From Clostridiales bacterium (GTDB lineage Bacteria; Bacillota; Clostridia; Oscillospirales; Oscillospiraceae): a DNA stretch of 34,808 nucleotides. The notes beneath the pieces were generated by a model that was given only the letters and a program-made list of their open reading frames with translations, was not told the origin of the DNA and made no database searches. Shown piece after piece: positions 17,136-30,459 of this stretch. Numbering within the stretch: position 1 is the first letter of the stretch; every line of letters begins with the position of its first letter. The translations under genes were made by a program, and so were the position numbers. The stretch lies in assembly GCA_014799565.1 (NCBI GenBank), contig JAAVHT010000014.1:52377-87184 (forward strand). Reading direction: 5' to 3'.

Positions 17136-17201
17136 GGACGATTAGGTATAGCAAAATGAATCGATTTGTATGGGCAATACAGTAAATTACATGAAAAGAA
17201 G

Positions 17202-17234
17202 CGCATACCTGCCGGGCGGATGGGCAGGTATGCG
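17202..17234 (-). terminator. intrinsic terminator of the 17299-18429 gene
   Basis: A 12-bp perfect stem (17202-17213 and 17223-17234), followed on the minus strand by the T-rich CTTCTTTTC. It is placed 65 bp after the stop of the membrane protein gene. Confidence 0.7.
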
Positions 17235-17298
17235 TTCAATTTTGCCCTCCGTGTTGGAAGCAGCGAGGCCGCTGCCGCTGCAATACACAGGGCGGGGT

Positions 17299-18429
17299 CT
17301 ATTTCTTGTCCTCCTTGCCGAACAGATCCAGTTTGCGGAGGGGCTTAGAAGTGGCCTGCTTCCGTGCGGCCGTGCCCTCCGGATTCGGTTTTCGAGGGGG
17401 CTCAGCATTGACCTGTTCCCGTGAGGCCCAGGCATCCAGATTTTGAAGAAAATCATTGTTCTGAGCCCATTGCTCCCGCCGCTCCTTTTCCTGCCGCACC
17501 CAGGTTTCGCCGCGCTCGGACAAGCCCTTGATCGTGGCCTTGGCGGTTTCTGGAAGCGCCTGGTAAACGGGAATGCAGGCGCAGTAAAACAGTTTGCCCA
17601 TGATGAAATTGACGATGAAGTTTTTGATCAGGTCGATGATACCCGTGCTGTTGATGATCTCCATGAAAAGGGCTCCGGATTCCGCTTCCCGACCCATCCA
17701 GACCTGGACAAGGGAATAGACCGCTACGATCAGAAGGAATGGGGGCAGGGTTCCCGGTACTTTGAAATAACAGAGGTAGCATATCTTTCCTACCGCACTC
17801 TTTACGCTGTCCACACACTGATCCAAGAAGGACTTGTTTCCGCCGTCTTGGACGGAGTCCTCATAAGACTCCTTAAACGGGATCACTTTTTGGCAGAGAA
17901 GGCCGTACATGAAGGAGAAAAACACGATTGTCCCCGCAAAATAGGCCATACACGTGAGCAGCGCCTTGCCGATGGCGCGGAAGAAGCCGAGGAAAGTGCC
18001 GTCCAAATATCCAGCAGTCAGTTTGAAGAAGATAAACAGATCCGAAAAACGGCTGAGAAGGGAGTGCTCATTGCTGACATTGATGCCATCTCCGACGGCA
18101 AACATATCTTGGAACAGATACTTATAGAATTGCTGCAAACCTATGATGGAGCCGGCCAGAAGGCAGAGCGTGAGCAGCGTATAGACAATAAGGCTGTGCC
18201 TGCCGCTTTTCCCTTTTTTGCCCAGCAGGGAGCAGATCCCTGCCGACAGGCGCTCAATGAGCTGATACGCCCAATACCCCGTTTTGGAGCAGAATACATA
18301 AAAGGCCCGGTAGGCGCCGTTGTGCATTAGCTCCTCCATCTCGGCCCCTGTCCAGTATGGCGTGGAGTAAAAAAACAAGAAAAAAATGACCGTTGTAACC
18401 GCAAAAGTTTTCAAGAAATCTGCCAGCAT
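17299..18429 (-). CDS. multi-pass membrane protein of unknown function
   Basis: A 376-residue protein I do not recognise. Hydrophobic segments are at about 5-21, 79-98, 155-178, 227-245 and 262-290. Between them are polar stretches, and a charged 85-residue tail rich in Arg/Lys/Glu (RGETWVRQEKERREQW near 306-321) probably lies in the cytoplasm. The start has a GGGGTGAT site, matching the anti-Shine-Dalgarno extended region. It is the sole gene of a transcript that begins at a consensus promoter about 300 bp upstream and passes a terminator-like hairpin. Its promoter is back to back with that of the GHKL/NOV_C gene, which suggests shared control. Base composition is lower in GC than the metabolic genes to the left. 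Confidence 0.75.
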   Translation of the reverse strand: MLADFLKTFAVTTVIFFLFFYSTPYWTGAEMEELMHNGAYRAFYVFCSKTGYWAYQLIERLSAGICSLLGKKGKSGRHSLIVYTLLTLCLLAGSIIGLQQFYKYLFQDMFAVGDGINVSNEHSLLSRFSDLFIFFKLTAGYLDGTFLGFFRAIGKALLTCMAYFAGTIVFFSFMYGLLCQKVIPFKESYEDSVQDGGNKSFLDQCVDSVKSAVGKICYLCYFKVPGTLPPFLLIVAVYSLVQVWMGREAESGALFMEIINSTGIIDLIKNFIVNFIMGKLFYCACIPVYQALPETAKATIKGLSERGETWVRQEKERREQWAQNNDFLQNLDAWASREQVNAEPPRKPNPEGTAARKQATSKPLRKLDLFGKEDKK

Positions 18430-18606
18430 AGTATATCACCCCGTTTTTTCGGTTCATAATCCCCGCAGATATTGTCTGTTACTATATCACAAAAATAGTG
18501 TCTCCGCAACAGATCAAGCCATAAACCCCACACACTCCTGCCGGACAGCCGCAAGGAGCAGCTTCTCATCCTCGCCCCGGGCTTACTGTCCGTGGGCGCG
18601 GCAAGA

Positions 18607-18640
18607 AAAAAGACCGAAAGGATATGGAATCCTTGCGAAC
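18607..18640 (-). promoter_or_regulatory. terminator-like hairpin in the leader of the membrane-protein gene
   Basis: On the minus strand AAGGAT/ATCCTT form a stem, with partial pairing outside it (GGTTCG with CGGTC), followed by TTTTTT. It lies about 100 bp after the promoter and about 180 bp before the gene. The motif CAGGCGGAATGCGG lies further upstream in the same leader (18671-18684) and resembles motifs in the leaders at 23023 and 28832. Confidence 0.5.
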
Positions 18641-18733
18641 CGCATCACCTGCGCTCCGCAAAAGACCATACCGCATTCCGCCTGATATGAACTCGATATT
18701 CAAATAAGAGGGGCACTTTTGTTACTTGAAGCT

Positions 18734-18762
18734 ATTATAGCGGGAAAAACCCGGTATGTCAA
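18734..18762 (-). promoter_or_regulatory. perfect consensus sigma-A promoter for the membrane-protein gene
   Basis: TTGACA (18757-18762), 17-bp spacer, TATAAT (18734-18739): 12 of 12 consensus bases. The spacer contains CGGG-TTTTT-CCCG. Its -35 shares a 19-bp inverted repeat (TGTCAAGA-TTT-TCTTGACA, 18757-18775) with the -35 of the opposite promoter. Confidence 0.85.
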
Positions 18763-18769
18763 GATTTTC

Positions 18770-18798
18770 TTGACAAGCGAACCGCGATGTGGTATGCT
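18770..18798 (+). promoter_or_regulatory. sigma-A promoter for the GHKL/NOV_C gene
   Basis: TTGACA (18770-18775), 17-bp spacer, TATGCT (18793-18798). It is back to back with the minus promoter, with the two -35 boxes 7 bp apart inside one inverted repeat. Confidence 0.8.
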
Positions 18799-18831
18799 CT
18801 GCCCAAGTTAATAGCGGATCATGCTTATGCG

Positions 18832-18884
18832 GTCACGAATCTCTGCCGGCGGCAACGCCTCGGCCGGTGAGTCGTGACTTTTTT
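18832..18884 (+). promoter_or_regulatory. attenuator-like hairpin in the leader of the GHKL/NOV_C gene
   Basis: The outer stem GTCACGA/TCGTGAC (18832-18838 and 18872-18878) encloses a GC-rich inner helix and is followed by T6 (18879-18884). It lies between promoter and ribosome site (AAAGGGAG, 18902-18909). The same ten bases GCGGTCACGA open the hairpin in the leader of the 22385-22783 gene. Confidence 0.7.
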
Positions 18885-18916
18885 GCTGCTCAAATTTTGA
18901 TGAAAGGGAGAATTTT

Positions 18917-21900
18917 ATGTACGCGGAACTGATTGACCGGGAAATCGGACAGGTCTACCAGAAAGGCGTGGCCACCAAAATATTACAGGGGATGGATCGC
19001 ATCCGCAACGAGTTCGACGTGACCCAAGCGAGGCGCTGGCCTACGGAGCTTCTGCAAAATGCCAGGGATCTCAGTGAGTCCGGGCAGCCCGTCCGGGTGC
19101 GCATCGAACTGACCGAGGACACCGTCCGTTTTTCCCACAATGGAAAACCTTTTTCCGTGAAAGACATCCTGTCCATCGTCAACCAGGTGTCCTCCAAACA
19201 GCCTGGGGAGGGGGTGGGACAGTTTGGTACTGGCTTCATGTCCACCTTCCAGCTGAGTATGCAGGTGGACATTCGCTCCTATCTCAAGGACGGAACAGAG
19301 CCCTACAAACCCTTCCGAGTCTGCCTGGATCGGAGCGGCGTCAATCAGGAGGCCATTACCGCCGCCATTGCCCAGGCCCTGTCTGAACTGAAGGCGGCAG
19401 ATACCGCCCCGCCGGTGGAGGCGCTGACGCCTGATAAGCTGAACACCGAATTCCGCTATCACCTCCGAGACCAGCGCAGCCGAAAGACTGCCCGACTGGG
19501 GATGGAGGATCTGCGGCTCACCCTGCCCTATGTGCTGCTGTTCTCCCCGCAAATCGGGGAGGTGAAGCTGGTGTTCCAGACCGAGGACCGCCGCGAGACC
19601 ATCACCTTCCGCCGGGGCGGAAAAGAGACGCTGCTCAGGGGCCTGATCCGGCACAAAATCATGGTGGGCAGCCGCCGCAAGACCTATTTCACTCTGGAGC
19701 AGGAGGGGATCACCCTGGCGGCGGCATGGGATCAGAAGGAGGGATTTCTGCCCCTTCCGGCGCTGGCCCCCCGGCTGTATGTGGACTTTCCGCTGGTGGG
19801 CTCTGAGCGGTTTCCCTTTCCAGTGGTGCTCAACAGCTTGGCCTTGCGGCCCAACGAGCCCCGCAGCGGCGTCTCGCTGGCGGAGGCCGAGGAGTCGGTG
19901 GACGGCCGGCAGAACCGGACGCTGCTGGATCGGGCGGCGGCGCTGTATCAGGAATTCGTCTCCGCTCTGCTGGAGGTGGATCTCCGGGGTGGGGAGCACC
20001 TGATGACCATACCGCCCCAGGAGGAGCGCAAGGAGTGGTCCGCAGCTTGGGTTCGGACGCATCTCTACGACCGAATCTTTGATTTCCTGTCCCGACAGCC
20101 CGTTTTGCCCGTGGACGGTGCGCTCCACAGCTTATCAGAAGAGAGCATCCGGCTGGTGCGGTCAGAAACGGCAGAGCAGCGGGCAAGCCTGAGACAGCTC
20201 TGGCGGCAGCTGCAGGGGACGCTGATCCCGGAGGGAGAAACGGATTGGTATACCATATTTGCCGGATATCATCCGCCGGAGGGAAAATACATCACCATCC
20301 GGAGTGCGCTGGCGGGTGCAGCTGCCGCTGTTCGGCGCCTGCGCCCTGAGGTGGATCCGGCGGCGTGGCTGGCTCGGCTGTACGACCTGGGCATGGAGAC
20401 GGAGGAGACCGCCATCCGGGCCGGAGAGCTGACCCTGTTCCCCAGTCAGTGCCCGGAGGATCTGGCAGAGGGGCGGCTGTATACCGCCCGAGAGATTTTC
20501 ACCGATCCCGGCATCCCGGAATTGCTGAAGGACGCCGCGGAGGAGTTGGACAAGCTGGAAGAGTCGGGCTGCCTGGAGCTGCGGAAGCGGCTGCTGCACC
20601 AGGGCTTTTGCCCCCAAACGGCGCAGTTCCTCCCGGAATACAGCATCGCCGAACTCACCGACTACATCATCACCCGCAGCGACCGGGGTTTCCGGGTTCG
20701 CGGCTATGCCCAGCAGGTGGATTTCTACAATGAGACCTGGGCCAACGCATGGAGCCTGCTGTTGGCCTGCGGGCCGGACCAGGAGCTGTACGAGCTGTGC
20801 CGGACCGGCTGGAGGACACTGCCCGAGTACACCGGAAAAGCCGCGTCGGACGGAGAGCAGGAGTGGGGCGAGTCCGCCCGGTGTCTGCTGTCCTTCCTTT
20901 CGGCAGCCATTTTCCAGCCTCCCATGTTCGACCGGCGGATGTGGAGCAATGCCTGCCGGGGTGTATTGAATCTGTTATTGGAGCAGGTGCAAAGGGCAAA
21001 GACCCTGGATGCTTGGACGGAGGCCTTGAACAGCCGCACGCCCGGAACAGAGACGATTTCCTGGTTGGAGCGGTTTTACGCCAAGGCGGCTCAATACCTC
21101 CGGGTGTCCGAGCTGTACTTCACGCCCATCCTGCCCAACCAGTACGGGGTGTTCCGGGCCCCCAGTGACCTGAAGCTGGACAAAATCGAGGACGAGGATT
21201 TGAAGGCCGTTTCCATCTGCTTTAAAGAGGAGCAGTCGGAATGCGACGTCTCTGCGGTGCTGCTGGATCAAAGACTCCAGCTATCGGGCTGGAATCTGCC
21301 CGTGCTGGGTTCGGACGCGGTGGCCGCCGTCATCAACACCGCCCTCCAGCAATTCCTGGCCAACACCAGCCTGTCGGAAGCCCCGTTGGAGATCCAGGAG
21401 GCGTGCACCAGGTTGTTGGGCTGGATTCAGGAGCATCCCCTGCGGGCACAGCGCTGCTTCCCGGCCTTCTGCGGCGAGGAGGCTCAGATGAAGCTGCTCA
21501 CGCCCAGGGCCGCCGTCAGCCTGCGGAAAAAGGCGGATCGGTTCAACGAGCTGCTGGCCCTGGCCGGAACGGAGGATCCGGAGAGACTGATCCAGCTGGT
21601 TCAGGAGCAGGCGCTGAGTGTGCAGCCGCCGGAACTGTTTGAAAATTTCGATCCTGACAGCGGCATTCTGCTGGACGAGGACTGGATTGGTCTGGACAAC
21701 GAGACCAGAAATGACCGTCTGCGCCGGATTGGTGAGGCTGGGGAGCGCTGCGCCTACCAGGCTGTGGTGGATTACTTCGCCGGACAAGGACTCCAGGTGG
21801 AGATGAATGACGGCTCAAACGCCATTTTAAAGAATGAACTTTCGGGGCGTCAGGTCACAGTTTGCCGCCCCGACACCGAAGATTTCAAGCAGCCGGGGTG

Positions 21901-22219
21901 GGATATCTTCCTCCAGATCCAGGATGGTCTGGAGACAGCTTCTTATTTTCTGGAGGTCAAAACCCACACGGCCCGAAGCCGGGTACGCTCGCGTCTCCCA
22001 CTGTCGGATACCCAGATGCGGCAGGCTGCCAGCCTGGGCAGGCAGTACATCCTGCTGCTGGTTATCTACGACGAGGCGCGGGGTCAGGCGGTGGAGTTTT
22101 GCCCTTTCCGGGATATCCCCAGGCAGATCGCCGAGGGAACCCTGCGCAGCGCCAGCGGGCGGTTTGTGTTGGAGACATCCGGCCTGGACGGCACCACCCA
22201 GGATGTTGTTCCGGCCTGA
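18917..22219 (+). CDS. GHKL (sacsin/HATPase-like) ATPase fused to a NOV_C/DUF3883 nuclease-like domain
   Basis: A 1100-residue protein. The N-terminus is a Bergerat-fold ATP-binding domain: N-box-like ELLQNARD at 44-51, FSHNGKPF at 72-79 and GQFGTGFMSTF at 101-111. The long middle is not recognised. The C-terminal domain (about 940-1085) matches NOV_C/DUF3883, with PGWD (Asp996) and EVK (Glu1013, Lys1015) in the spacing of a PD-(D/E)XK nuclease core. The architecture is known from sacsin/NO VEIN-type proteins that turn up in bacterial defence regions; a defence role here is inference. The start has an AAAGGGAG site. It stands alone after a promoter and a terminator-like leader, back to back with the membrane-protein gene. 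Intact, with no frameshift. Confidence 0.85.
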   Translation: MYAELIDREIGQVYQKGVATKILQGMDRIRNEFDVTQARRWPTELLQNARDLSESGQPVRVRIELTEDTVRFSHNGKPFSVKDILSIVNQVSSKQPGEGVGQFGTGFMSTFQLSMQVDIRSYLKDGTEPYKPFRVCLDRSGVNQEAITAAIAQALSELKAADTAPPVEALTPDKLNTEFRYHLRDQRSRKTARLGMEDLRLTLPYVLLFSPQIGEVKLVFQTEDRRETITFRRGGKETLLRGLIRHKIMVGSRRKTYFTLEQEGITLAAAWDQKEGFLPLPALAPRLYVDFPLVGSERFPFPVVLNSLALRPNEPRSGVSLAEAEESVDGRQNRTLLDRAAALYQEFVSALLEVDLRGGEHLMTIPPQEERKEWSAAWVRTHLYDRIFDFLSRQPVLPVDGALHSLSEESIRLVRSETAEQRASLRQLWRQLQGTLIPEGETDWYTIFAGYHPPEGKYITIRSALAGAAAAVRRLRPEVDPAAWLARLYDLGMETEETAIRAGELTLFPSQCPEDLAEGRLYTAREIFTDPGIPELLKDAAEELDKLEESGCLELRKRLLHQGFCPQTAQFLPEYSIAELTDYIITRSDRGFRVRGYAQQVDFYNETWANAWSLLLACGPDQELYELCRTGWRTLPEYTGKAASDGEQEWGESARCLLSFLSAAIFQPPMFDRRMWSNACRGVLNLLLEQVQRAKTLDAWTEALNSRTPGTETISWLERFYAKAAQYLRVSELYFTPILPNQYGVFRAPSDLKLDKIEDEDLKAVSICFKEEQSECDVSAVLLDQRLQLSGWNLPVLGSDAVAAVINTALQQFLANTSLSEAPLEIQEACTRLLGWIQEHPLRAQRCFPAFCGEEAQMKLLTPRAAVSLRKKADRFNELLALAGTEDPERLIQLVQEQALSVQPPELFENFDPDSGILLDEDWIGLDNETRNDRLRRIGEAGERCAYQAVVDYFAGQGLQVEMNDGSNAILKNELSGRQVTVCRPDTEDFKQPGWDIFLQIQDGLETASYFLEVKTHTARSRVRSRLPLSDTQMRQAASLGRQYILLLVIYDEARGQAVEFCPFRDIPRQIAEGTLRSASGRFVLETSGLDGTTQDVVPA

Positions 22220-22231
22220 CGGTTCAGATGT

Positions 22232-22350
22232 CCAGCTATGCATACAGCATATCCGCGCAGGCTTTGTCAAAAAGTTCTGCATAGGGTTTCCTTCAGCTTG
22301 ACGCGCTTCTCCAGTCCCAGCGCTTGCAGGCCATTATACCATTCCTTTGG
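22232..22350 (-). pseudogene. possible C-terminal gene remnant after the 22385-22783 gene
   Basis: On the minus strand, after the small gene, one frame reads NGLQALGLEKRVKLKE and another reads YAELFDKACADMLYA and stops. Together these look like the tail of a protein split by a frameshift. No start or ribosome site is seen. It could be chance; nothing else is visible in the 165-bp gap. Confidence 0.25.
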
Positions 22351-22384
22351 GAGGGCAGAACCGCCCGCTAGGCTGAGTGAACTG

Positions 22385-22783
22385 TCATTCCCGCCCCGGA
22401 AGCCAGCTCGCAAATCGAAGCAGCCAGGGAGCTGCTCCCTCTGGAGCGCTGGCGAGCAGCTCTTCCGGGGATAACGGCTCTCCGTCCACGGCCAGTGAAC
22501 GCCGACCCCGGTTCCAGAGGATCAGCAGCCGATCCGGCGGTGTCAGAATGTCCACCCTCCGCCCTCTGGCGCGATATTCAAGCGCAGCCGCGTCCTCCGC
22601 TCCCCGGTAAAGGGAAACCATGTCCCCATTCGAACCAAACTCCATTTCGTAGTCCAGCCATAACTCATCTCCGGCCCGCAGTTCCACCGCGCCAAACAGG
22701 AGCCCATCCTTCCGGCTGTCAAGAGCCACAATCACAGCCCCTTCTGGGTTGTTTCTGAAAAACTTATTTTCTTGCATCCCCAT
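22385..22783 (-). CDS. small protein of the WN-x-G / VDG-x-x-SP paralogue group
   Basis: A 132-residue soluble protein with no family I can name. Its C-terminal half carries LLILWNRGRRSLAVDGEPLS (WNRG at 90-93, VDGEPLSPEE at 99-108). The same pattern occurs in the 184-residue protein at 23190 and the 238-residue protein at 29524. The N-terminal part (residues 10-60) is predicted beta-rich, with LWLDYEMEFGSNGD. The start has an AAAGGA site. It is a single gene after its own promoter and a hairpin leader, divergent from the paralogue at 23190. Function unknown; the short beta domain could be a binding module. Confidence 0.75.
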   Translation of the reverse strand: MGMQENKFFRNNPEGAVIVALDSRKDGLLFGAVELRAGDELWLDYEMEFGSNGDMVSLYRGAEDAAALEYRARGRRVDILTPPDRLLILWNRGRRSLAVDGEPLSPEELLASAPEGAAPWLLRFASWLPGRE

Positions 22784-22800
22784 CGTTTTTCCTTTCGCAA

Positions 22801-22842
22801 AATAAAATAGTCACGATTTCTCCGTTGGTGGAGAATCGTGAC
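22801..22842 (-). promoter_or_regulatory. attenuator-like hairpin in the leader of the 22385-22783 gene
   Basis: GTCACGATTTCTCC (22810-22823) pairs with GGAGAATCGTGAC (22830-22842) with one bulged base, followed on the minus strand by TATTTTATT. It opens with GCGGTCACGA as in the leader at 18829-18838. Confidence 0.7.
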
Positions 22843-22873
22843 CGCACTATGCTTGATCCAAATTTCTATGATA

Positions 22874-22903
22874 AGCATATCACGAAGAAAGCAGAACTGT
22901 CAA
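22874..22903 (-). promoter_or_regulatory. sigma-A promoter for the 22385-22783 gene
   Basis: TTGACA (22898-22903), 18-bp spacer, TATGCT (22874-22879) on the minus strand, divergent from the promoter at 22948. Confidence 0.75.
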
Positions 22904-22947
22904 GCACGATTTTTTGAGGAGGTGTTCGGAAAAATTTTTGAAAACCC

Positions 22948-22976
22948 TTGACAAACTTGCTGGACAGTGATATTGT
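22948..22976 (+). promoter_or_regulatory. sigma-A promoter for the 23190-23900 genes
   Basis: TTGACA (22948-22953), 17-bp spacer, TATTGT (22971-22976). The two divergent -35 boxes are 44 bp apart, exactly as in the pair at 28686/28741, and the DNA between them is similar in the two places. Confidence 0.8.
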
Positions 22977-23022
22977 CATACACAGTAAGAAGTGCTATAG
23001 GTTTTCAAGTGAATAGTTCTGT

Positions 23023-23095
23023 CAGGCGTTACGCGGCGGAACCGGAATGTGATTTCCAGGTGGGGTCACAAAGGGTTTTGTTGTTGCGCCTTTTT
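23023..23095 (+). promoter_or_regulatory. long leader hairpin 1 (CAGGCG...GCGCCTTTTT) upstream of the 23190 gene
   Basis: CAGGCGTTACGCGGCGG at the 5' side pairs imperfectly with a GTTGTTGCGCC 3' side; the inner part holds TGTGA/TCACA. T5 follows. It is terminator-like and shares the CAGGCGTnA(n)GCGGCGG opening and GCGCCTTTTT ending with the leader at 28832-28907. Confidence 0.65.
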
Positions 23096-23099
23096 GTTT

Positions 23100-23138
23100 C
23101 CCGTTTCCGGAAGTCACCCGGGGACGGGCTTTTCTTTT
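23100..23138 (+). promoter_or_regulatory. leader hairpin 2, terminator-like, upstream of the 23190 gene
   Basis: CCCGT/ACGGG outer stem and CCGG/CCGG inner stem, followed by TTTTCTTTT. This is the second of two tandem terminator-like structures before the gene; the copy at 28909-28950 has the same layout. Confidence 0.65.
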
Positions 23139-23189
23139 GAAGATCGGCGGTAAGACTTCTTGATTCTAAAAATTTTGGAGGTAAATATT

Positions 23190-23744
23190 ATGCAGATTGA
23201 AAAAATTATTAACAAGATCCAGCAGGACCCCGAGTTCAAAAGCGTGGATAAAGTCGTGATTTGTCTGAACAAGGAGTGTCCCTCCATGCTGGAAGATGCC
23301 TTCCTCCTTTCCGCAGAGGGGGAGCTTCAACGGATCATTGCGGAGTCCTGCATCAACGACGACCAGGCGGACGAAGCGGTGATCCGGTCGTCTGAGAGCG
23401 GGGACGACCTGGTGACCTTCCATGAGACCCGGACGAGTTCTTACAATTACCGTCCCAATGGGATTCGGGTGCATGATGAAGATATCCATTTCCCGTGTGT
23501 GGTATTCTGGAACAGCGGCAAGGAGCGCTTGACGGTAGAAGGCGAGTGGGTTTCCCCCGGCGACTATACGGCTATCCAGCAGATGGACATCAACAGCCCA
23601 GAGGCTCAGGAGGCACTGAAGGCACACCTGAACAGTCCGGAGGTTCAGGAGGGGATCAGGGAGGCACAGGAGATGTTCGAGGAGAAGGAGCGCGCGCTCG
23701 CGCGCGAGCGGGCCAAGAAGGCCGCCGAACAGGACGGGAGGTAA
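23190..23744 (+). CDS. WN-x-G / VEG-x-x-SPG paralogue with charged C-terminal helix
   Basis: A 184-residue soluble protein of unknown function. The start at 23190 is set by GGAGGT 7 bases upstream; a longer frame to 23160 would include that site. The middle carries VVFWNSGKERLTVEGEWVSP (WNSG at 107-110, VEGEWVSPGDY at 116-126). This is aligned over about 60 residues with the protein at 29524, where the preceding motif is also shared (VTFHE...NGIRVHDE versus VRFHA...DGLRIKED). The last 50 residues are a charged helix rich in Glu, Ala and Arg. The next gene starts 3 bases after the stop. The leader has two tandem terminator-like hairpins, so expression probably depends on readthrough. Confidence 0.75.
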   Translation: MQIEKIINKIQQDPEFKSVDKVVICLNKECPSMLEDAFLLSAEGELQRIIAESCINDDQADEAVIRSSESGDDLVTFHETRTSSYNYRPNGIRVHDEDIHFPCVVFWNSGKERLTVEGEWVSPGDYTAIQQMDINSPEAQEALKAHLNSPEVQEGIREAQEMFEEKERALARERAKKAAEQDGR

Positions 23745-23747
23745 GCG

Positions 23748-23900
23748 ATGGACGAGCTGAAGCTCTATTTTCCCCAAGCGGTTCTCAGTAATCTGTTCCT
23801 TGTGCTCCAGGAAACGGGCATGGGTAAGCTTCCCTTGGAACGAGCTGCCATCAAAGGCGAAAAAATATTCCAAGGGGTGAAGCCGGGGATGCATTTGTAA
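23748..23900 (+). CDS. small 50-residue protein, coupled to the preceding gene
   Basis: An ATG 3 bases after the upstream stop, with GGGAGGT overlapping that stop, opens a 50-codon frame reading MDELKLYFPQAVLSNLFLVL and on, ending KPGMHL. The ribosome site, coupling and terminator 40 bp downstream make it a real short gene. The first half has alternating hydrophobic residues (possible amphipathic helix or beta segment); the rest is basic. No family recognised. Confidence 0.7.
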   Translation: MDELKLYFPQAVLSNLFLVLQETGMGKLPLERAAIKGEKIFQGVKPGMHL

Positions 23901-23937
23901 CCCTGGAGCCACAGCCAATATGAGACGGTAAAGAATA

Positions 23938-23968
23938 AAGAGGGCGGGGATACCCGCCCTCTTGTTAT
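23938..23968 (+). terminator. intrinsic terminator of the 23190-23900 operon
   Basis: GAGGGCGGG/CCCGCCCTC (23940-23948 and 23953-23961) 9-bp stem with a GATA loop and trailing TTGTTAT. Confidence 0.8.
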
Positions 23969-24019
23969 ATGGAGCTTAATCGAGAAATCAGATTGCTGTC
24001 TCAGTCCATTTCATTAAAA

Positions 24020-24187
24020 TTAAAAACCAGGGCCGCGCTTTTTATAGTAAGGGCACGCGTTGTATCCTGGGAATCCTTTTTTGGGAGTTGAAACACGACA
24101 ATACTTTTTTTGGGAATCCCCAGGAACATCTTTGTTTTTTACATCACATCTGTCTTTGTAAACTGTGACGAATTTAAGATTGGGCAC
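24020..24187 (-). CDS. possible small Cys-containing peptide downstream of the radical-SAM-like gene
   Basis: A 55-residue frame starting at GTG (24187), 40 bp after the radical-SAM-like gene. It is rich in Lys, Pro and Gly with three Cys, ending KKGFPGYNACPYYKKRGPGF. GGAG lies 13 bases upstream, a weak fit. An alternative ATG frame of 17 codons overlaps its start. The composition looks coding-like, but evidence is thin. Confidence 0.3.
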   Translation of the reverse strand: MPNLKFVTVYKDRCDVKNKDVPGDSQKKYCRVSTPKKGFPGYNACPYYKKRGPGF

Positions 24188-24227
24188 TTCATTTTGTAAT
24201 CTCCGAAGTTTAATATATTTTAATTTG

Positions 24228-25280
24228 TCATTTTGTACAAAGTACAATCTCCGGACAAATCGGGCAGCCGCCCATGCAAGCCCTTTGATGTTCGCAGTCA
24301 GGACAGCTCTGCCTAAAATGTGCCCTGAAATCCTCAAAAGCAGGGCTATCCCAGGCCTCCTGGATGGTGTGGGTTCTCAAGTCTACAGCCCACTGTTGAT
24401 TTTGATTATCGAAACTGCATGGAAGCATTTTCATATCAGGGGTGATGTAGGCCGACCAGCGGCCGCCTTCGCAAGTATCGACACTATCCATATCAATGGG
24501 AAGCGATTGGGCAATCAGTCCTGGGATCGTGCAGGAGTCGAATCCGATTTTGCAGCTGTGTCCGCCCTTACACGCAAGGGAGAGGAACTCCCTCACCCGC
24601 GGATCATCCGCCCTGAGTACCTGTTGTTGACTGCCAAGACCGACCGGCTTGTGCAGCAAGAATACAACAGCATTGATGCCGGCCGGGAAACTGTGCGCTT
24701 TCAGTCGGGTAACTGCCTCTTCAATGGTTGCGTTGCTGACAACATAGTGAATGTTGGTTTTAACGCCGGCCTGAAGCAAATGATTGATGGCTTGCAAAGT
24801 ATAGGGGCTCCGATACCAGCTCACCGCCACTGCGCCGCAATATTTTTTGCAAAGCTGAGCAATCTCCGGAGTCATCCCCAGCCCGGATGTGGTGAAGTTT
24901 GGAACGATGTCCGCATGGCGGCAGAGTTCCAGAATTTCCTGAAACTGACCGTGCTGGTCGGGATCTCCACAGCCGCCCAACGCAATTTGATAGGTGTTTC
25001 CTTTACACTGTCGGACAATCTCCGCAAAATCCTCCAATGCCATGTTGGGGGCGCAGGAGTGGAGGCCGTCCTGATAGCACTCCACCCCGGCCTTCACGCA
25101 TAGACCGCTCTGTCCGTGTGCGCAGTGGCCCATGATACCTACATCCAGGAGCTCCGGAAATGACGCCATAAAAGGATCCTGAGCAGTCTCCACCCCATCG
25201 TTGATCACACCGGATCGCATATAGTATCCTGTTGCCCCGTCGAAGATTGATATAAAATTCCGATCCTTCCGCATCTTCAT
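24228..25280 (-). CDS. radical SAM-like / SPASM-domain protein
   Basis: A 350-residue protein with the layout of a radical SAM enzyme carrying an auxiliary iron-sulfur (SPASM-like) domain. After FPELLDVGIMGHC come cysteines Cys53, Cys61 and Cys68 in a CX7CX6C arrangement rather than the classical CX3CX2C. IALGGCGDPDQH (about 118-129) fits the glycine-rich SAM-binding position. The C-terminal third has DTCEGGRWSAYITPDMKMLP followed by Cys, then a cluster CPDCEHQRACMGGCPICPEIV plus Cys, typical of SPASM cluster ligands. Such enzymes often modify peptides. The upstream gene (21 bp away) encodes an MKIRTDFVTNSSSSSF protein, a possible substrate (inference). GGAGGGAG site present. Last well-supported gene of the operon from 28469. 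Confidence 0.8.
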   Translation of the reverse strand: MKMRKDRNFISIFDGATGYYMRSGVINDGVETAQDPFMASFPELLDVGIMGHCAHGQSGLCVKAGVECYQDGLHSCAPNMALEDFAEIVRQCKGNTYQIALGGCGDPDQHGQFQEILELCRHADIVPNFTTSGLGMTPEIAQLCKKYCGAVAVSWYRSPYTLQAINHLLQAGVKTNIHYVVSNATIEEAVTRLKAHSFPAGINAVVFLLHKPVGLGSQQQVLRADDPRVREFLSLACKGGHSCKIGFDSCTIPGLIAQSLPIDMDSVDTCEGGRWSAYITPDMKMLPCSFDNQNQQWAVDLRTHTIQEAWDSPAFEDFRAHFRQSCPDCEHQRACMGGCPICPEIVLCTK

Positions 25281-25301
25281 GCAATGCGTCTCCCTCCAGC
25301 C

Positions 25302-25676
25302 TCAGTAGCTTAGATCGTCGTCAATAGCCGAAAAGATATCGGGGTCGGCGTCTTTCAATACATCCCACAGCTTACAAAACAAATCGGCATATTGATACTC
25401 ACAATCGTCGAAATCCACACTGCCATAGCGAATCGTTTTCCCTTGGGCCAGTGCTTGCCGAATGTCATCATGGGATTCTTCCGGCACATACCAGTAATCA
25501 AAGGCTTTCTGAATTTCGGCCTCGGAGCTGTCTGGTGTCAAAAAGACGTCTCCCAGCATATGATCCACAACGAATTTGAAAACAGCCTCCTTCTGTCTCT
25601 GACTGAACTCTCCCTTCTGCGTCAGGATAAAACTGCTGCTGCTGGAATTTGTGACAAAGTCGGTTCTGATTTTCAT
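25302..25676 (-). CDS. MKIRTDFVTNSSSSSF-type protein of unknown function
   Basis: A 124-residue acidic protein whose first 16 residues, MKIRTDFVTNSSSSSF, are a leader shared by many otherwise unrelated small proteins of Firmicutes (from memory; no function known to me). The remaining 108 residues are rich in Asp/Glu and aromatic residues. They include AFDYWYVPEESHDD and the tail FSAIDDDLSY. It lies 21 bp before the radical-SAM-like gene. Its AGGAGG (25712-25717) is 35 bases from the ATG, separated by a hairpin that may bring the two together. The conserved head and variable body resemble a recognition leader; a role as substrate of the neighbour enzyme is a hypothesis. Confidence 0.75.
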   Translation of the reverse strand: MKIRTDFVTNSSSSSFILTQKGEFSQRQKEAVFKFVVDHMLGDVFLTPDSSEAEIQKAFDYWYVPEESHDDIRQALAQGKTIRYGSVDFDDCEYQYADLFCKLWDVLKDADPDIFSAIDDDLSY

Positions 25677-25683
25677 GTTTCTG

Positions 25684-25717
25684 GAGCAGCGGCCTTTCGG
25701 CCTGCTCTACACCTCCT
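25684..25717 (-). promoter_or_regulatory. hairpin between ribosome site and start codon
   Basis: On the minus strand AGGAGG, four bases, then GAGCA-GGCC-GAAA-GGCC-gc-TGCTC (GNRA tetraloop, 2-base bulge), seven bases, ATG. If folded, the effective spacing is about 11 bases; if unfolded, the site is too far to work. Confidence 0.5.
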
Positions 25718-25737
25718 TATTTTTTGGTTAGCAATCA

Positions 25738-26109
25738 TCAGAATCTGTGGCATTTTGCGGGGGCGGATATCAAACGTCCCTGCGATAAGATGACGGAGCG
25801 CGTTAACAGAAAAATACCCCGTACATCATCTCCCAGGGCGTTGATGACAGGGACAATCGTGGGAAAGAGTACCGTCTTTCCGCTTTGCTCCGCCCGCAGG
25901 ATCTCCAAAATATAGTTCTGGGGAAACCGGGGATCTCCGATGTGGTGGAACGCCCCCTTTTCCCGCTCAAGTTCTGCAGCACTGCACAGGCTCAAATCCT
26001 TATAGGGCAGCAGCCAGCGATAAGGCATACTGGGCAGGTCTACGACGTCCGGCCCAAGCTGCTGCGCCGCGGTGGATTTTCCGCACCCGGTATAAGCGGC
26101 AATCAGCAT
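25738..26109 (-). CDS. P-loop NTPase/kinase-like protein, apparently C-terminally truncated
   Basis: A 123-residue protein beginning MLIAAYTGCGKSTAAQQLGP, a Walker A motif (GCGKST, residues 8-13) at the extreme N-terminus as in small P-loop kinases. The AAAGGAG site is good. The frame reads sensibly to DDVRGIFLL (about residue 100) and then continues into TRSVILSQGRLISAPAKCHR, which does not look like the family. Another frame over the same bases reads NALRHLIAGTFDIRPRK. I infer a deletion or recombination joint near 25810. It sits between a metallophosphoesterase gene and the MKIRTDF gene in one operon. Likely non-functional or altered. Confidence 0.6.
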   Translation of the reverse strand: MLIAAYTGCGKSTAAQQLGPDVVDLPSMPYRWLLPYKDLSLCSAAELEREKGAFHHIGDPRFPQNYILEILRAEQSGKTVLFPTIVPVINALGDDVRGIFLLTRSVILSQGRLISAPAKCHRF

Positions 26110-26152
26110 TTGATATCGCTCCTTTCAAGTGGGTTCAGCCACAGCCGCAAAT

Positions 26153-26902
26153 CTATGTCAGCTGGATCAGCTCCTGATAGAGGTAGATAAACTGCTCTCC
26201 AATGTGTCCGTCCATATGGTAATGCCCGAAGAACCAGTGTTGGAAGCGGCAGCGCTGTGCCACCTCGTCCAGGAATTCGGTCAGGTGGTCGGCCTTGTAT
26301 GCGCCTTTGCCCAGCTTATCCTGGATCGAGGTAGGGGCGCAGTGGGTGATAATGTAGTCCACCTGCCAGCTGGCGCGTTCCAGGTTGTCCCGCGCTCGGC
26401 GGCAGTCCTCCTGATCGGGCAGCTCCTCCTTCCACCAGGACTCGTGATTGACTCGAAAAAGGGCGTTTTGCCTGTATAGCGTTCGATAGCGCCACCTAAA
26501 GTTGGGGTCGTCACGCTCCAGAATACCGTCAGACACGTCGTGGCTGCTGGCTCCGCCCATGGTGAAAAAGCGAAGCCCCTCCAGCTCGTAGATCTCTCCC
26601 CGAAGCAGATGCAGGACAGAAGGGCGGATGGTCTGGACGCACCCTCCGTGCCAGGGTATGGTGGGATATTGCTTCAGAAGGTCGAAGTTCTCGTGGTTGC
26701 CGTCTACGAACAGGGTGGTGAACGGGCGGTTTTCCAGCCAGTCCAGCTCCTTCTGTTCCGCCTCCTTGCCGTCCCAGACAAAGCCAAAATCGCCGCAGAT
26801 AATCAGGTAATCTTCTTTGGTCAGGGCGTCCAGCTCGGGATAAAAGCCTGGCTCCAGGCGCTCGGTGAGCCCGTGGACGTCCCCGGTAATATAGATAGAC
26901 AT
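26153..26902 (-). CDS. metallophosphoesterase (calcineurin-like)
   Basis: A 249-residue enzyme with the binuclear-metal motifs of calcineurin-like phosphoesterases: GDVH at 7-10, GDFG at 37-40, GNHEN at 68-72, THCAP near 192 and GHYHMDGH near 226. The start at 26902 has AAAGGAG just upstream; the frame continues to a TTG at 26923 that would include the site. Likely a soluble phosphatase or phosphodiesterase; the substrate (protein, nucleotide or RNA) cannot be told. It lies 62 bp after a second, unrelated-looking phosphoesterase in the same operon, and 43 bp before the P-loop gene. Confidence 0.88.
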   Translation of the reverse strand: MSIYITGDVHGLTERLEPGFYPELDALTKEDYLIICGDFGFVWDGKEAEQKELDWLENRPFTTLFVDGNHENFDLLKQYPTIPWHGGCVQTIRPSVLHLLRGEIYELEGLRFFTMGGASSHDVSDGILERDDPNFRWRYRTLYRQNALFRVNHESWWKEELPDQEDCRRARDNLERASWQVDYIITHCAPTSIQDKLGKGAYKADHLTEFLDEVAQRCRFQHWFFGHYHMDGHIGEQFIYLYQELIQLT

Positions 26903-26964
26903 GATTGGCTCCTTTCCGTACAAAAAATCAGAATTTCACCGTTGGTTGGGGTGCGTTTGACAGA

Positions 26965-27789
26965 TCAATTGAGCTGCCCCGCCTCTTTATCGCGGTAATA
27001 CCCGGCGATGGCCCGCTTTGCTTTCGACAAATAGCTCTCCCGCTCGATATCACTATAAAACATTCCGCCCCCACAACCTGCCGAATAGACGAGGGCGCCT
27101 TCAACGTCCGGGCACGTCACCGTAAACTCCCAGGTATCCACACGGAGATATCCGATTTGACGTCCCTCCTTGTCAAAAGCGTCATACGTTTCCGGGAACG
27201 ACGGACAGGTCATCTCCAGGCGGATGTCACCCGGCTTGATCCGTCCGTAGGAGGCATCGCTGTATTCCTCGTCCCAGAAGGCAATAATCTCCTCCGCGCT
27301 GACGGGAGCCATGCCGTTGGCGTCCACCCCCACGTCCAGCCGCCGAAGGTTGTCGTGCCGGTTCCCTTCGTTGTAATGTGGCTTGTTGTGCTGGTGCCCG
27401 TGGAGATGGAAGGCGCCTTGGCGCATCCCGTTCCAGCTCAAAAGGGGATAGTGGCAGAGGATGAAGTACTGATTTTGCCAGCAGAGCTCAAAGTAATCCT
27501 TGACCCACACAAAGGCATCCTGGCGGAAGGACTTCTGGTCGGCAAATCCATCATGATTTCCCCGGATCAGGTATTTGCGGCCCTGAAGCTGTTCTAACAG
27601 CGCGTTGGCCGGGGAAGGCCCCTTCAGGGTGAAATCGCCCAGGATATAAATGTCATCCTCCGGCGATACCTTGGCGTTCCAGTTCCGGATCAGCGCCTCG
27701 TTCATTTCCTCCACCGTCTGGAAAGGACGCCGCTCATATTGGAGGACATTGCTGTGGTAAAAATGCGTGTCCGCGGTGAAATAGGTTAT
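26965..27789 (-). CDS. metallophosphoesterase with extra C-terminal domain
   Basis: A 274-residue protein of the calcineurin-like fold: TADTHFYHSN at 5-14, ILGDFTL near 50, RGNHDG near 78, LCHYPLLSW and LHGHQHNKPH. A C-terminal domain of about 100 residues follows, with VEGALVYSAGCGGGMFYSDI. This type is common on plasmids and phages of Firmicutes. The start is unusual. The only strong site (GGAGGAGGG, 27796-27804) is followed by ATA at 27787-27789, overlapping the upstream stop as ATAA. The TTG at 27807 lies in that ribosome site and has none of its own. I give the ATA position; the TTG start is the alternative. Confidence 0.85.
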   Translation of the reverse strand: MTYFTADTHFYHSNVLQYERRPFQTVEEMNEALIRNWNAKVSPEDDIYILGDFTLKGPSPANALLEQLQGRKYLIRGNHDGFADQKSFRQDAFVWVKDYFELCWQNQYFILCHYPLLSWNGMRQGAFHLHGHQHNKPHYNEGNRHDNLRRLDVGVDANGMAPVSAEEIIAFWDEEYSDASYGRIKPGDIRLEMTCPSFPETYDAFDKEGRQIGYLRVDTWEFTVTCPDVEGALVYSAGCGGGMFYSDIERESYLSKAKRAIAGYYRDKEAGQLN

Positions 27790-28469
27790 AACGTTTCCCT
27801 CCTCCAAGGTGCGGTATCAATCTCCGTGGCGGCTCCTGCGGCACAGGAAAGCTTGTTTTCACCGTATCCGAAAGCCACGTCCTGAGCCCCCTCGTTGACG
27901 ATCAGGATCGTTTTGACGTCCTCAGAGATCTTATAGGGCTCGATTCGATTGCGGTAAGGAAAATATCGAAAATCCACCCGGCAGACCCCGGCCGCATCTT
28001 CCACAAAATCTTGAATCAGGACGGAGTCCTGAAACATACCATAATGCACATAGGGCTCGACGCGCCGGACCGGCCCGCTCCGTCCGGCCCAGAGGGCGGA
28101 CAGGACAGTGGGGCCCGCGACGCGCAGGCACAGCACTCCGGAAACGTTGAGGGTTGACAGAGCGGCTTCCCGGTCCCTGTCCGCCTGTTCACGGGCACGG
28201 GCACAGTACTGCCAGAACTCCGAGGGCAGGCCCGGCAGTTCCGGGGCTGGTAGGGAACTCGCCTTGCGGCCCAGCTCCTCCGAACGCAGATGGTACAGAC
28301 TGCCGGATTGGGTTTCCAACAGAATGCCGCGCTCTTCCTCGGCTATGCGGACGATGGCCGAGGTGTGGACCTGCATCCCATCCGGCAGTTTGGGGTGGCC
28401 TGACACGATGCCGTGGGCCAGAAGGGCAGAACCGTGGGCCTTTAAGTACCAGGAAAACAGCGTAGGCAT
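27786..28469 (-). CDS. unrecognised protein, first gene of the six-gene operon
   Basis: A 227-residue soluble protein. The N-terminal 65 residues (HGIVSGHPKLPDGMQVHTSA, then GILLETQSGSLYHL) look like a small beta domain. A helical middle region is followed by a beta-rich C-terminus with TILIVNEGAQDVAFGYGENK. That last part is faintly like the WN-x-G / VDG motif of the three paralogues in this island, with asparagine and glycine kept but tryptophan lost. The start has a GGAGGTG site. It follows a promoter and a long terminator-like leader, and its stop overlaps the start region of the phosphoesterase gene. No function can be given. Confidence 0.7.
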   Translation of the reverse strand: MPTLFSWYLKAHGSALLAHGIVSGHPKLPDGMQVHTSAIVRIAEEERGILLETQSGSLYHLRSEELGRKASSLPAPELPGLPSEFWQYCARAREQADRDREAALSTLNVSGVLCLRVAGPTVLSALWAGRSGPVRRVEPYVHYGMFQDSVLIQDFVEDAAGVCRVDFRYFPYRNRIEPYKISEDVKTILIVNEGAQDVAFGYGENKLSCAAGAATEIDTAPWRRETL

Positions 28470-28548
28470 GATGCACCTCCAAACTTATTTTCTGATCGAT
28501 TCCACACAATTTTGCAGTTGGTTTTTTGCCGACCTCACGGACAAAGTG

Positions 28549-28607
28549 AAAAAACGGCCACAAAACCCGTCAGGCAAAGGCATCGCCTGACCAGAATCTG
28601 TAACCGC
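28549..28607 (-). promoter_or_regulatory. attenuator-like hairpin in the leader of the 28469 operon
   Basis: On the minus strand GCGGTTACAGATTCTG, then GTCAGGC/GCCTGAC as the apical stem, then GGGTTTTGTGGCCG pairing back with many G-U pairs, then TTTTTT. The opening GCGGTTACAGATTCT resembles GCGGTCACGATTCT of the leader at 22845. About 85 bases separate the hairpin from the gene. Confidence 0.7.
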
Positions 28608-28662
28608 ATAACGCATGGTTCGATATTTTGTTGCCTTCCTAGAAGCTTTAAGTACTATGTCT

Positions 28663-28691
28663 AAAATAGCATACCCCAATCCGCCTGTCAA
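28663..28691 (-). promoter_or_regulatory. sigma-A promoter of the six-gene operon
   Basis: TTGACA (28686-28691), 17-bp spacer, TATTTT (28663-28668) on the minus strand, divergent from the promoter at 28736. A TATGCT overlaps the end of the spacer, as in the related promoters. Confidence 0.75.
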
Positions 28692-28735
28692 GCTCCGAGT
28701 AAAAAGATGTGTTGTGAAATTTTTTGATTTTCCCC

Positions 28736-28764
28736 TTGATATCGGCTGAGGCGTCATGTATACT
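28736..28764 (+). promoter_or_regulatory. sigma-A promoter of the 29005-30240 transcript
   Basis: TTGATA (28736-28741), 17-bp spacer, TATACT (28759-28764). The bases after the -10 (CTGCTCAA) resemble those after the -10 at 18793 (CTGCCCAA). Confidence 0.75.
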
Positions 28765-28831
28765 CTGCTCAATCGAAGAAAAGCGGCGCTTTATTCGACT
28801 GTAAAACTTCATAGTTGGTATTTGAGGACGT

Positions 28832-28907
28832 CAGGCGTGAGCGGCGGTTTCAAATACGATCTCCTTTTGCTGGATCGTATTTTGAACATGGCTGCTGCGC
28901 CTTTTTT
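28832..28907 (+). promoter_or_regulatory. long leader hairpin 1 (CAGGCG...GCGCCTTTTTT)
   Basis: CAGGCGTGAGCGGCGG pairs with GGCTGCTGCGCC. Inside, TTCAAATACGATC pairs with GATCGTATTTTGAA (one bulge), with a TCCTTTTGCT-type loop. T6 follows. It shares ends with the leader hairpin at 23023-23095. Confidence 0.7.
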
Positions 28908-28908
28908 C

Positions 28909-28950
28909 GGTCTGCCTTAGGAGATCACTCCGAAGGGCAGGCCGTTTTTT
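28909..28950 (+). promoter_or_regulatory. leader hairpin 2, terminator-like
   Basis: GGTCTGCC/GGCAGGCC outer stem and GGAG/CTCC inner stem around ATCA, followed by GTTTTTT. Second tandem terminator-like structure, same position as the one at 23100-23138. Confidence 0.75.
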
Positions 28951-29004
28951 ATGAAGCCGGCCCGGAGGCCGCGTAAAATGAAATTGAAAGGAGTATGATC
29001 GAAC

Positions 29005-29375
29005 ATGACGGACAGCTGCATTCAACAGATCCTGGGGAAGATTTCCGCGGAGGGTATTCCGCTCAAGGAGCCGCTGCTCCTGAAGGAGAAACACCCTTGC
29101 AAGAGGAGATGTACCTGAAAACCGAGGAGGGACGCAAAACCCTGGACGGTTCATCTTTACTTTATGCAAAGGAACTGCGGCTCGGAGTCAGCCTGTCCAG
29201 GAGCTGCGCAAAGGAACAAATCTTTCAGCCGATGGAGCGGCGGAGTGAGGAACTGGCCGAATACCGTCAGGCCAGATGTGTGTTCCGCAAAAATCCGGAT
29301 CCCGCCAAACCGGTGGTGATCGCAGACATCGGTGCAGAGGCCATCCGGATGGACACCCCGCTGAAAAATTCCTGA
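29005..29375 (+). pseudogene. frameshifted small gene
   Basis: An ATG at 29005 with AGGAG about 11 bases upstream opens a frame with good codon use (IQQILGKISAEGIPLKEPLL) that stops after 37 codons. From about 29095 the adjacent frame takes over with normal codon use (EEMYLKTEEGRKTL to IADIGAEAIRMDTPL) and stops at 29375. One base missing in the CCC near 29093 would join them into a protein of about 123 residues. No family recognised. Either a pseudogene or a sequencing error; programmed slippage is less likely because no slippery heptamer is seen. Confidence 0.5.
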
Positions 29376-29523
29376 TCCCAGCGGGGGACTTGTTACAGAC
29401 AAAAAATTCCCCCGGATCTCTATATAGTTCTGGTTTATGGGACTTTACTCGTGGTAGAATGAGCTCAATGATCCAAGTGTCAGTTTCCGCAGTACACATT
29501 TTATGTTGAAAGGAAGACGGAGC

Positions 29524-30240: not shown

Positions 30241-30459
30241 CTGGCGGCAGATAGATGTGATACCTGTGCCGCCCCTAACCTGCGGGAGCGGCCTAACAAC
30301 GCCATGAATCCGGGGCAGGGCGCCGCGCTCAAGCTGTCTGACGCGGAGCTTTTGGCGATCCATAGGGCCCGGGGACAGAAGATCCTCCAAATTGCCGCTG
30401 CGCACGGGACAGACACGCTGATCCTGGGCGCCTTCGGCTGCGGAGCGTTCCAAAAACAA
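30241..30459 (+). pseudogene. C-terminal fragment of a microbial PARG (TIGR02452-like) gene
   Basis: The frame directly after the previous stop reads TCAAPNLRERPNNAMNPGQG, then LSDAELLAIHRARGQKILQI, then LILGAFGCGAFQ. These are the conserved stretches of the TIGR02452 / microbial poly(ADP-ribose) glycohydrolase family (about 270 residues when complete), which removes ADP-ribose. Only about 70 residues of the middle-to-C-terminal part remain. There is no start, and the frame runs into an A/T-rich hairpin where the conserved continuation should be. A decayed remnant, cut on both sides. Confidence 0.65.

Follow-up and report, generated by a model that had tools for sequence, protein, structure and literature searches.

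How can a set of genes be expressed when every transcript that leads to it runs into a terminator-like hairpin before the first gene? The question is raised by a 34,808-nucleotide (nt) stretch from a Clostridiales bacterium of the Oscillospiraceae (assembly GCA_014799565.1, contig JAAVHT010000014.1, positions 52,377 to 87,184 of the forward strand), here called the window, in which an island spanning 17.3-30.2 kb carries six sigma-A-type promoters as three divergent pairs. The host genome assembly has 2.5 Mb in 92 contigs and is 78% complete. We analysed the six leaders computationally and propose that they probably represent a new terminator/antiterminator family, off by default and opened by a putative trans-acting factor, whose regulon includes a TmtA-like defence protein.

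An earlier note, made from the letters of the window, had placed six outward sigma-A promoters in three divergent modules. A consensus scan of positions 17000-31000 bears this out, as it gave 18 promoter-like sites compared with 6.6 (standard deviation 2.9) in shuffles, and the six outward promoters were the six best sites with 10-12 of 12 positions matched, the remaining twelve all scoring 9/12. We named the arms A1-A4, B1 and B2, with the following promoters:

18734..18762 (-): promoter of arm A4, TTGACA-17-TATAAT, 12/12 in the scan
18770..18798 (+): promoter of arm A1, TTGACA-17-TATGCT
22874..22903 (-): promoter of arm A2, TTGACA-18-TATGCT
22948..22976 (+): promoter of arm B1, TTGACA-17-TATTGT
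28663..28691 (-): promoter of arm A3, TTGACA-17-TATTTT
28736..28764 (+): promoter of arm B2, TTGATA-17-TATACT

The claim that the second and third modules have similar 44-bp cores between their -35 boxes (22904-22947 and 28692-28735) was not upheld. The cores are identical at 17/44 positions, a value within the range of dinucleotide shuffles, of which 483/2000 scored as high without gaps and 191/2000 with gaps. The core of the first module (18.7 kb) is only 7 bp long. By folding, we confirmed that a hairpin plus T-run precedes the first gene in 6/6 arms, and that both right-hand arms (B1 and B2) carry a second terminator, as the earlier note had stated:

18606..18681 (-): terminator of A4, hairpin and T-run, -30.6 kcal/mol, overlapping the 3′ arm of the conserved hairpin described below
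18831..18885 (+): terminator of A1, hairpin and T-run, -25.7 kcal/mol
22797..22843 (-): terminator of A2, hairpin and T-run, -19.8 kcal/mol
23024..23096 (+): first terminator of B1, hairpin and T-run, -31.4 kcal/mol
23100..23138 (+): second terminator of B1, -19.0 kcal/mol, without the conserved hairpin
28549..28607 (-): terminator of A3, hairpin and T-run, -32.9 kcal/mol
28833..28907 (+): first terminator of B2, hairpin and T-run, -34.7 kcal/mol
28908..28950 (+): second terminator of B2, -24.7 kcal/mol, without the conserved hairpin

The fold z-scores of the leaders A1, A2, A3, A4, B1 and B2 were -1.84, -3.95, -2.33, -1.40, -2.99 and -6.35, respectively.

All six leaders share one hairpin of 24-25 nt, which is composed of a covarying 4-bp stem, an A-N bulge, a GC/GC stem and a small loop. 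Read from its 5′ end, the layout is NNYC, the A-N bulge, GC, a loop of 4-5 nt, GC and GGNN, with the invariant bases CA.GC(4-5 nt)GCGG. The hairpins are located as follows:

18666..18690 (-): conserved antiterminator hairpin of A4, with an outer stem of 7 bp
18814..18837 (+): conserved antiterminator hairpin of A1
22837..22861 (-): conserved antiterminator hairpin of A2
23017..23041 (+): conserved antiterminator hairpin of B1, also in the 7-bp outer-stem set
28599..28623 (-): conserved antiterminator hairpin of A3
28826..28849 (+): conserved antiterminator hairpin of B2

The leader sequences previously pointed out, GCGGTCACGA/GCGGTTACAG and CAGGCGT..GCGGCGG, were found at the places given for them. 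Their division into two separate leader sets had to be abandoned, as one motif fits all six leaders, including the arm at 18690-18666 (-) that had been given no motif. The motif begins 5-59 nt after the predicted transcription start, and in A1 and A2 only 5-8 nt of RNA lie ahead of the hairpin. Four leaders of the window have a 5-nt loop, in which one extra loop-closing pair is possible (G-U in two, A-U in one and G-C in one).

The motif was first noticed by eye, on aligning four leaders and then six, and was hence subjected to independent tests. With the alignment as its sole input, RNAalifold gave ...((((..((.....)))))).. for the six leaders, with 36/36 cells paired. In a held-out search on both strands of 603 kb, a profile of five hairpins was used to look for the sixth, in turn for all six; the non-members scoring as high numbered 0, 1, 10, 7, 17 and 44 for A1, A2, A3, A4, B1 and B2, so that the six hairpins ranked between 1st and 45th. 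In the whole own genome (2.5 Mb), the six leaders were the top six matches (23.1-29.3 bits) of a covariance model built on them; the next match had 18.7 bits, and no T-run occurs in the 800 bases examined for it. Rfam gave no match in the window at the gathering score and none at the leaders in E-value mode, a result that includes the abiF RNA (RF03085). The decamer GCGGTYACRR was tried as a marker and rejected: it occurs at 35 places in the own genome compared with 67 for its reversed control, and is therefore uninformative alone.

How does this hairpin relate to the terminators? Sequence and folding showed that the 5′ arm of the terminator begins with the hairpin's own 3′ arm (GGNN); because this segment serves both structures, hairpin and terminator are mutually exclusive. 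When the comparison was extended to nine further leaders from two sister genomes (see below), a terminator followed the motif, with its 5′ arm beginning inside it, in 15/15 leaders. The GGNN arm folded into the terminator in 14/15, and in A3 likewise when the leader was folded complete. On its own, the hairpin has little stability (-0.7 to -6.5 kcal/mol over the 15 leaders), and forcing it to form costs 4.8-11.6 kcal/mol in the window's six leaders and 1.7-11.5 kcal/mol in the nine sister leaders; the terminator should therefore win unaided.

We propose the following mechanism. Each transcript would start at a strong sigma-A promoter and meet an intrinsic terminator about 65-140 nt later, and the default output would be a short leader RNA only. 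A putative factor, most likely an RNA-binding protein, would read the invariant CA.GC....GCGG face together with the bulge and hold the hairpin as the RNA emerges; the terminator would then be blocked and the polymerase would enter the genes. Since all six arms carry the same site, one such factor would switch the whole set, the TmtA-like gene included. At the second terminator of the B arms, a second event may be needed, the terminator may be leaky, or the factor may travel with the polymerase. The earlier note had suggested a coordinated regulon that antitermination, a ligand or a shared regulator would open. Antitermination of the whole set by one shared factor is the best-supported reading of the leaders; from it we infer the factor, a conditional mode of read-through and control over all arms together.

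We then asked how far such leaders extend. The checks that the earlier note had proposed were carried out in part, with a covariance model made from the window's six leaders only (R1), run on 42 genomes of the genus including the own one; besides the lack of an Rfam counterpart, it gave homologous leaders in two sister genomes which covary with the six. Outside the own genome, R1 had four matches at E<=0.1, in two (G410 and G454) of the 41 other genomes, and 4/4 lie ahead of homologues of leader genes, namely the gene for a protein of 132 amino acids (aa) in two cases, the 227-aa gene, and the first gene of B2. Nine leaders were read at the sister loci, four at two G454 loci and five at two G410 loci. 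Another of the ten listed sister places (L117:1490; 12.9 bits, promoter 6/12) was dropped as not being a leader. The divergent pair of 132-aa and 184-aa genes is kept in both sister genomes. The pair of the 227-aa gene and B2 is divergent in G454; in G410 both gene kinds have leaders, which are separated by some 4.8 kb. Both sister genomes have the two modules on separate contigs, and the gene neighbourhoods, compared by eye on the translations, differ from one genome to the other.

To separate leaders from chance matches, we used a rule combining a promoter of at least 9/12 within 120 nt upstream and a T-run within 100 nt downstream. All 15 leaders pass it, with promoters of 9-12 plus a T-run. 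Among 400 genomes of the family (own included), R1 gave matches in 17 genomes at E<=0.1; the 17 loci outside the own genome all have promoter scores of at most 8, three have a T-run, and none has both. A second model (R2) was run on 40 of the 42 genus genomes at E<=1, two genomes with 7% contamination being left out. Its 77 matches comprised 13 known leaders, 35 places judged not to be leaders and 29 not judged; the 35 all had promoters of at most 8 and one had a T-run (25 of them were assessed with 90 nt upstream; the other ten were L129, L135 and eight fetched places). The strict motif occurred 22 times in 755 kb of fetched DNA, at the 15 leaders and at seven other places (promoter at most 7, three with a T-run). 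R2 missed two of the 15 leaders (B2 and G454_B1), and R1 listed five of the six own and four of the nine sister leaders; because known leaders were missed, three of 42 genomes with leaders is a lower bound. A pattern requiring both terminator arms was set aside: among the 400 family genomes it found the window only, and one viral match was read as AT-rich chance.

Covariation was then assessed over the 15 leaders. Eight columns are invariant and 90/90 pair cells are paired, whereas in a control with the partner slid by 1-3 columns only 24-54% of cells pair. Cells changed on both sides numbered 15 compared with 4.8 in shuffles, and the covariation score was 0.490 compared with 0.203, each value being reached by 0/500 shuffles. 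The outermost pair is G-C, G-C, A-U, U-A, U-G and C-G in A1, A2, A3, A4, B1 and B2, respectively, and over the 15 leaders GC in five, CG in three, UG in three, AU in two and UA in two; at pair 6-20, U-G stands in 10/15 leaders. Five rows, the three orthologous B1 leaders and two of A4 type, have an outer stem of 7 bp. In this set, which was chosen for its longer stem, pairing holds in 45/45 cells of nine pairs, four of which show changes on both sides, and the B1 orthologues keep the 7-bp stem through changes on both arms. Selection for pairing in the terminator also acts on the 3′ side of the hairpin. The terminator helix starts after column 7 in 15/15 leaders and leaves the 5′ arm of the hairpin outside; since this arm takes no part in the terminator, its covariation speaks for the small hairpin itself.

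Several observations weigh against an antiterminator opened by a shared factor. Of the mere six short pairs of the hairpin, three are constant and no more than two show changes on both sides. The number of pairs changed on both sides was reached by 447/500 shuffles and the number of pair types by 344/500 for the 15 leaders; the same two numbers were reached by 260/500 and 59/500 for the six leaders alone, and by 90/500 and 235/500 for the five-row set. The 15 leaders are drawn from just three genomes within a single genus, so that relatedness inflates the covariation. Moreover, a simple terminator scan gave 11 sites compared with 14.2 in shuffles, so that by this measure hairpins are not enriched; the scan takes only plain stems with loops of 3-8, and from the leaders it lists only the second terminator of B1 and an inner hairpin of A3. 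No regulator emerged: above the cut-off, the own genome encodes a single CAT-RBD protein and a single ANTAR protein, neither of them near the island, and the motif does not occur near the CAT-RBD gene (L109, G000:C66) or the ANTAR gene (L110, G000:C17); both proteins are still candidates for the role. A local antiterminator also leaves the second terminator of the B arms (6/6) unaccounted for, and for plain occlusion this is the main unexplained feature.

This last feature is what best sustains the alternative of processive antitermination, which survives better than the others and which we still regard as unlikely. Here a factor would load at the hairpin, much as happens at lambda boxB, the LoaP hairpin or canT, and alter the polymerase so that it reads past the first and any later terminators; the overlap with the terminator would be a side effect. 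Behind the first terminator, six B-type leaders (B1, B2, G410_B1, G454_B1, G454_B2 and one G410 leader, at 13892) carry another strong one (-16.9 to -29.1 kcal/mol, with its T-run between motif +101 and +119) that lacks a hairpin of its own. The nine other leaders have no convincing second terminator, a crude search listing weak ones (-8.8 to -16.6 kcal/mol) in A1, A4, G410_A2 and G454_A2. In the consulted portion of PMC12691694, LoaP recognises a UNCG-type hairpin and gives read-through at several terminators, and in that of PMC11658703 the canT element of Tn916 is processive. The present leaders resemble LoaP targets in having a small hairpin ahead of terminators, but differ from that description in that UNCG occurs in 0/15 loops and the hairpin overlaps the terminator. 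The sharing of the 3′ arm with the terminator in 15/15 leaders, needless for a mere loading site, also counts against this alternative.

A second alternative takes the short leaders themselves as the product, namely abundant small RNAs that neutralise an island protein in the manner of RNA antitoxins, with the genes expressed through leaky read-through. Its model is AbiF-RCd22 of C. difficile, where, as far as the consulted portion of PMC12373285 describes it, a sigma-A promoter yields a short terminated non-coding RNA, RCd22, which neutralises the toxin, and a longer read-through transcript reaches the defence gene. The island shares this order of promoter, terminated RNA and defence gene, but it has no match to RF03085 or any other Rfam family at the leaders, and in contrast to the published system as seen there, one motif stands over several gene kinds and competes with the terminator. 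Since the genes behind the leaders (an ATPase, a 376-aa protein and several small proteins) look unrelated, a toxin-specific RNA would not be shared among them; the view also leaves the terminator overlap unexplained, and we consider it improbable.

The motif could also be a DNA operator, an imperfect dyad bound by a repressor or activator downstream of the promoter, and an imperfect inverted repeat does lie 3′ of all six promoters. However, its distance to the start varies from 5 to 59 nt, U-G pairs and the one-sided bulge break the dyad as DNA, and it lies on the transcript strand, joined to the terminator, in 15/15 leaders of the window and the sister genomes, which makes this very improbable. 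The least probable view, that the leaders are alike only as duplicates of one module whose constitutive terminators merely lower expression, draws on the relatedness of some leader genes (weak BLASTP matches and alignments) and fails to account for a hairpin kept through changes on both arms, also in orthologous leaders, while the promoter cores diverged.

Can the proposed terminator/antiterminator family be assigned to a known class? The RAT core is GATTGT.AC, which is absent from the six loci checked (the window, L109 and L116-L119). According to the consulted parts of PMC1489936 and PMC3369931, RAT elements, the targets of the CAT-PRD proteins BglG, SacY and LicT, are leader hairpins that overlap an intrinsic terminator and, when stabilised by protein binding, allow read-through. 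The present hairpin is similar in overlapping the 5′ part of an intrinsic terminator in 15/15 leaders, but measured against the RAT described there (29-30 nt with two conserved bulges), it has 24-25 nt, one 2-nt bulge and the bases CA.GC....GCGG. No CAT-RBD was found in a Pfam scan of 10 island proteins (the 123-aa and 126-aa open reading frames (ORFs) left out), and the sole CAT_RBD of the own genome is on another contig. Systems with ANTAR proteins (EutV, NasR, AmiR) likewise combine a leader RNA, a terminator before the first gene and several operons under one factor. EutV targets, as given in the same part of PMC3369931, consist of a pair of small hairpins whose loops are hexanucleotides, loop positions 1 and 4 being important, whereas here there is a single hairpin with a 4-5-nt loop, and the 5-8 nt upstream in A1 and A2 are all the RNA available there. 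The logic is thus like that of LicT/RAT or ANTAR control, yet the defining features of those targets are absent. Two general marks of a trans-regulated attenuator, mutually exclusive hairpins and covariation of the antiterminator, appear to be present, the latter within the limits given above. The earlier note knew of no described system with this layout; the open-access literature, covered in part, does not contradict this, and the overlap of antiterminator and terminator as such is well known from RAT (LicT/BglG) and ANTAR control.

What do the leaders control? The genes behind them are the following:

17299..18429 (-): gene after A4, 376 aa, no family match
18917..22219 (+): gene after A1, sacsin-type ATPase of 1100 aa with a NOV_C domain at its C-terminus, matching PADLOC TmtA
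22385..22783 (-): gene after A2, 132 aa, with 70-71% identity to its G410 and G454 homologues, each behind a hairpin-family leader
23190..23744 (+): gene after B1, 184 aa, 53-54% identical in G410 and G454, behind hairpin-family leaders
27786..28469 (-): first gene after A3, 227 aa, homologues of 49% (G410) and 61% (G454) identity, each behind a hairpin-family leader
24228..27807 (-): genes downstream of A3, encoding a P-loop protein, two metallophosphoesterases, a small protein with FVTNSSSSSF and a radical SAM/SPASM enzyme
28995..30240 (+): genes after B2, a 126-aa ORF (homologues in G410 and G454) and a 245-aa ORF (36% homologue in G410)

The 1100-aa protein matches NF047352 (8.1e-20), PF13020 (2.6e-05) and the PADLOC TmtA model PDLC03967 (1.7e-101 over residues 6-580), the last match including the N-terminal ATPase. 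TmtA belongs to what we take to be the Tiamat system, and on these matches the protein is a predicted TmtA-like anti-phage defence protein. Tiamat is counted among anti-phage systems in the consulted part of PMC12629846, and no Tiamat gene under such a leader came up in searches of open-access papers. The 1100-aa gene was not found in G410, in the compared stretches of G454, in genome_contigs, in phages or in 59 other relatives. The genes at 24228..27807 (-) would be co-transcribed from A3, and one of the metallophosphoesterases of this arm matches the PADLOC candidate PDC-S10 (4.8e-13). A defence role of the regulon is suggested by the matches of TmtA, PDC-S10 and DrmD/DpdE type, most genes having no assigned function.

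We tentatively consider a wider possibility, on the doubtful side, that an undescribed class of RNA antiterminators with its own RNA-binding regulator controls mobile defence modules, and that an infection-linked factor, from the host or from a phage, opens them all simultaneously. If so, the promoters would be always on with the genes held off, and defence would be deployed within one transcription time; a 25-nt RNA alone would unite the scattered modules of the sister species into a regulon. A compact covarying antiterminator before diverse genes would offer a 25-nt bait for the regulator and for the signal that opens the island, and eight invariant bases would suffice to mark a regulon absent from Rfam. 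To our knowledge, terminator-based control of anti-phage genes at the RNA level is little known, AbiF-RCd22 being the nearest case.

Further observations concern the individual genes. The 376-aa protein has a homologue in G410 (26% identical, 359 aa, L116 8657-9736 (+)) which adjoins the 132/184-aa module, with no leader seen before it. In G410, a 941-aa helicase matching DrmD/DpdE models (L118 14108-16933 (-)) adjoins the leader modules and has an ordinary promoter; such a leader was seen neither before this gene nor before the genes of the 245-aa and 376-aa types. The 132-, 184- and 245-aa proteins (22385-22783, 23190-23744 and 29503-30240) appear to share a domain, WNxG..VxG..SP, of no known family. 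Family profiles of the 184- and 227-aa proteins had no significant match among solved structures. Relatives of the 132-aa protein were absent from genome_contigs and viral_contigs, and those of the 184-aa protein from 299 other family genomes; alignments of three small proteins had no match in viral_contigs, nor did the 138-aa G454 homologue in phages or the 174-aa one in plasmids. The first ORF of B2, 28995-29375 (+), consists of two overlapping frames, from ATG 28995 (126 codons) and ATG 29005 (37 codons), and is shorter than the homologues in G410 and G454, which is possibly due to a frame disruption or an assembly error. Similarly, the 123-aa P-loop protein (25738-26109 (-)) may be a shortened copy, as it matches only the first 94 residues of a 272-aa G410 homologue (73%).

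The radical SAM/SPASM gene (24228-25676 (-)) comes directly after the gene of the small protein starting MKIRTDFVTNSSSSSFI, for which NCBIfam and PHROGs gave no match and Pfam gave none above the cut-off; the two are perhaps an uncharacterised peptide-modifying pair. A search for leaders associated with the radical SAM gene gave no match in 32 viral loci and only weak ones (at most 16.8 bits) in three family loci. The pair recurs in elements of viral_contigs (L071-L073, radical SAM 77% identical), beside genes that by eye resemble those of serine recombinases; family genomes (L107 and L108) also have it, with variant NSSS motifs. Relatives of the radical SAM enzyme lie near SMEK genes on Agrobacterium and Rhodobacter plasmids, in Rhodobacter also near DUF3883 genes.

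Finally, the island is flanked by a perfect 11-bp direct repeat, TGGTGGACGAT, at 17132-17142 and 30588-30598. With one mismatch it occurs at five further places in the window, giving seven in total compared with 0.66 expected. The right-end copy forms the tail of a tRNA-like fragment at 30591-30637 (-), whose 14.3 bits are below the gathering score of 29, and the repeats are possibly attachment-site remnants of an integrated element.

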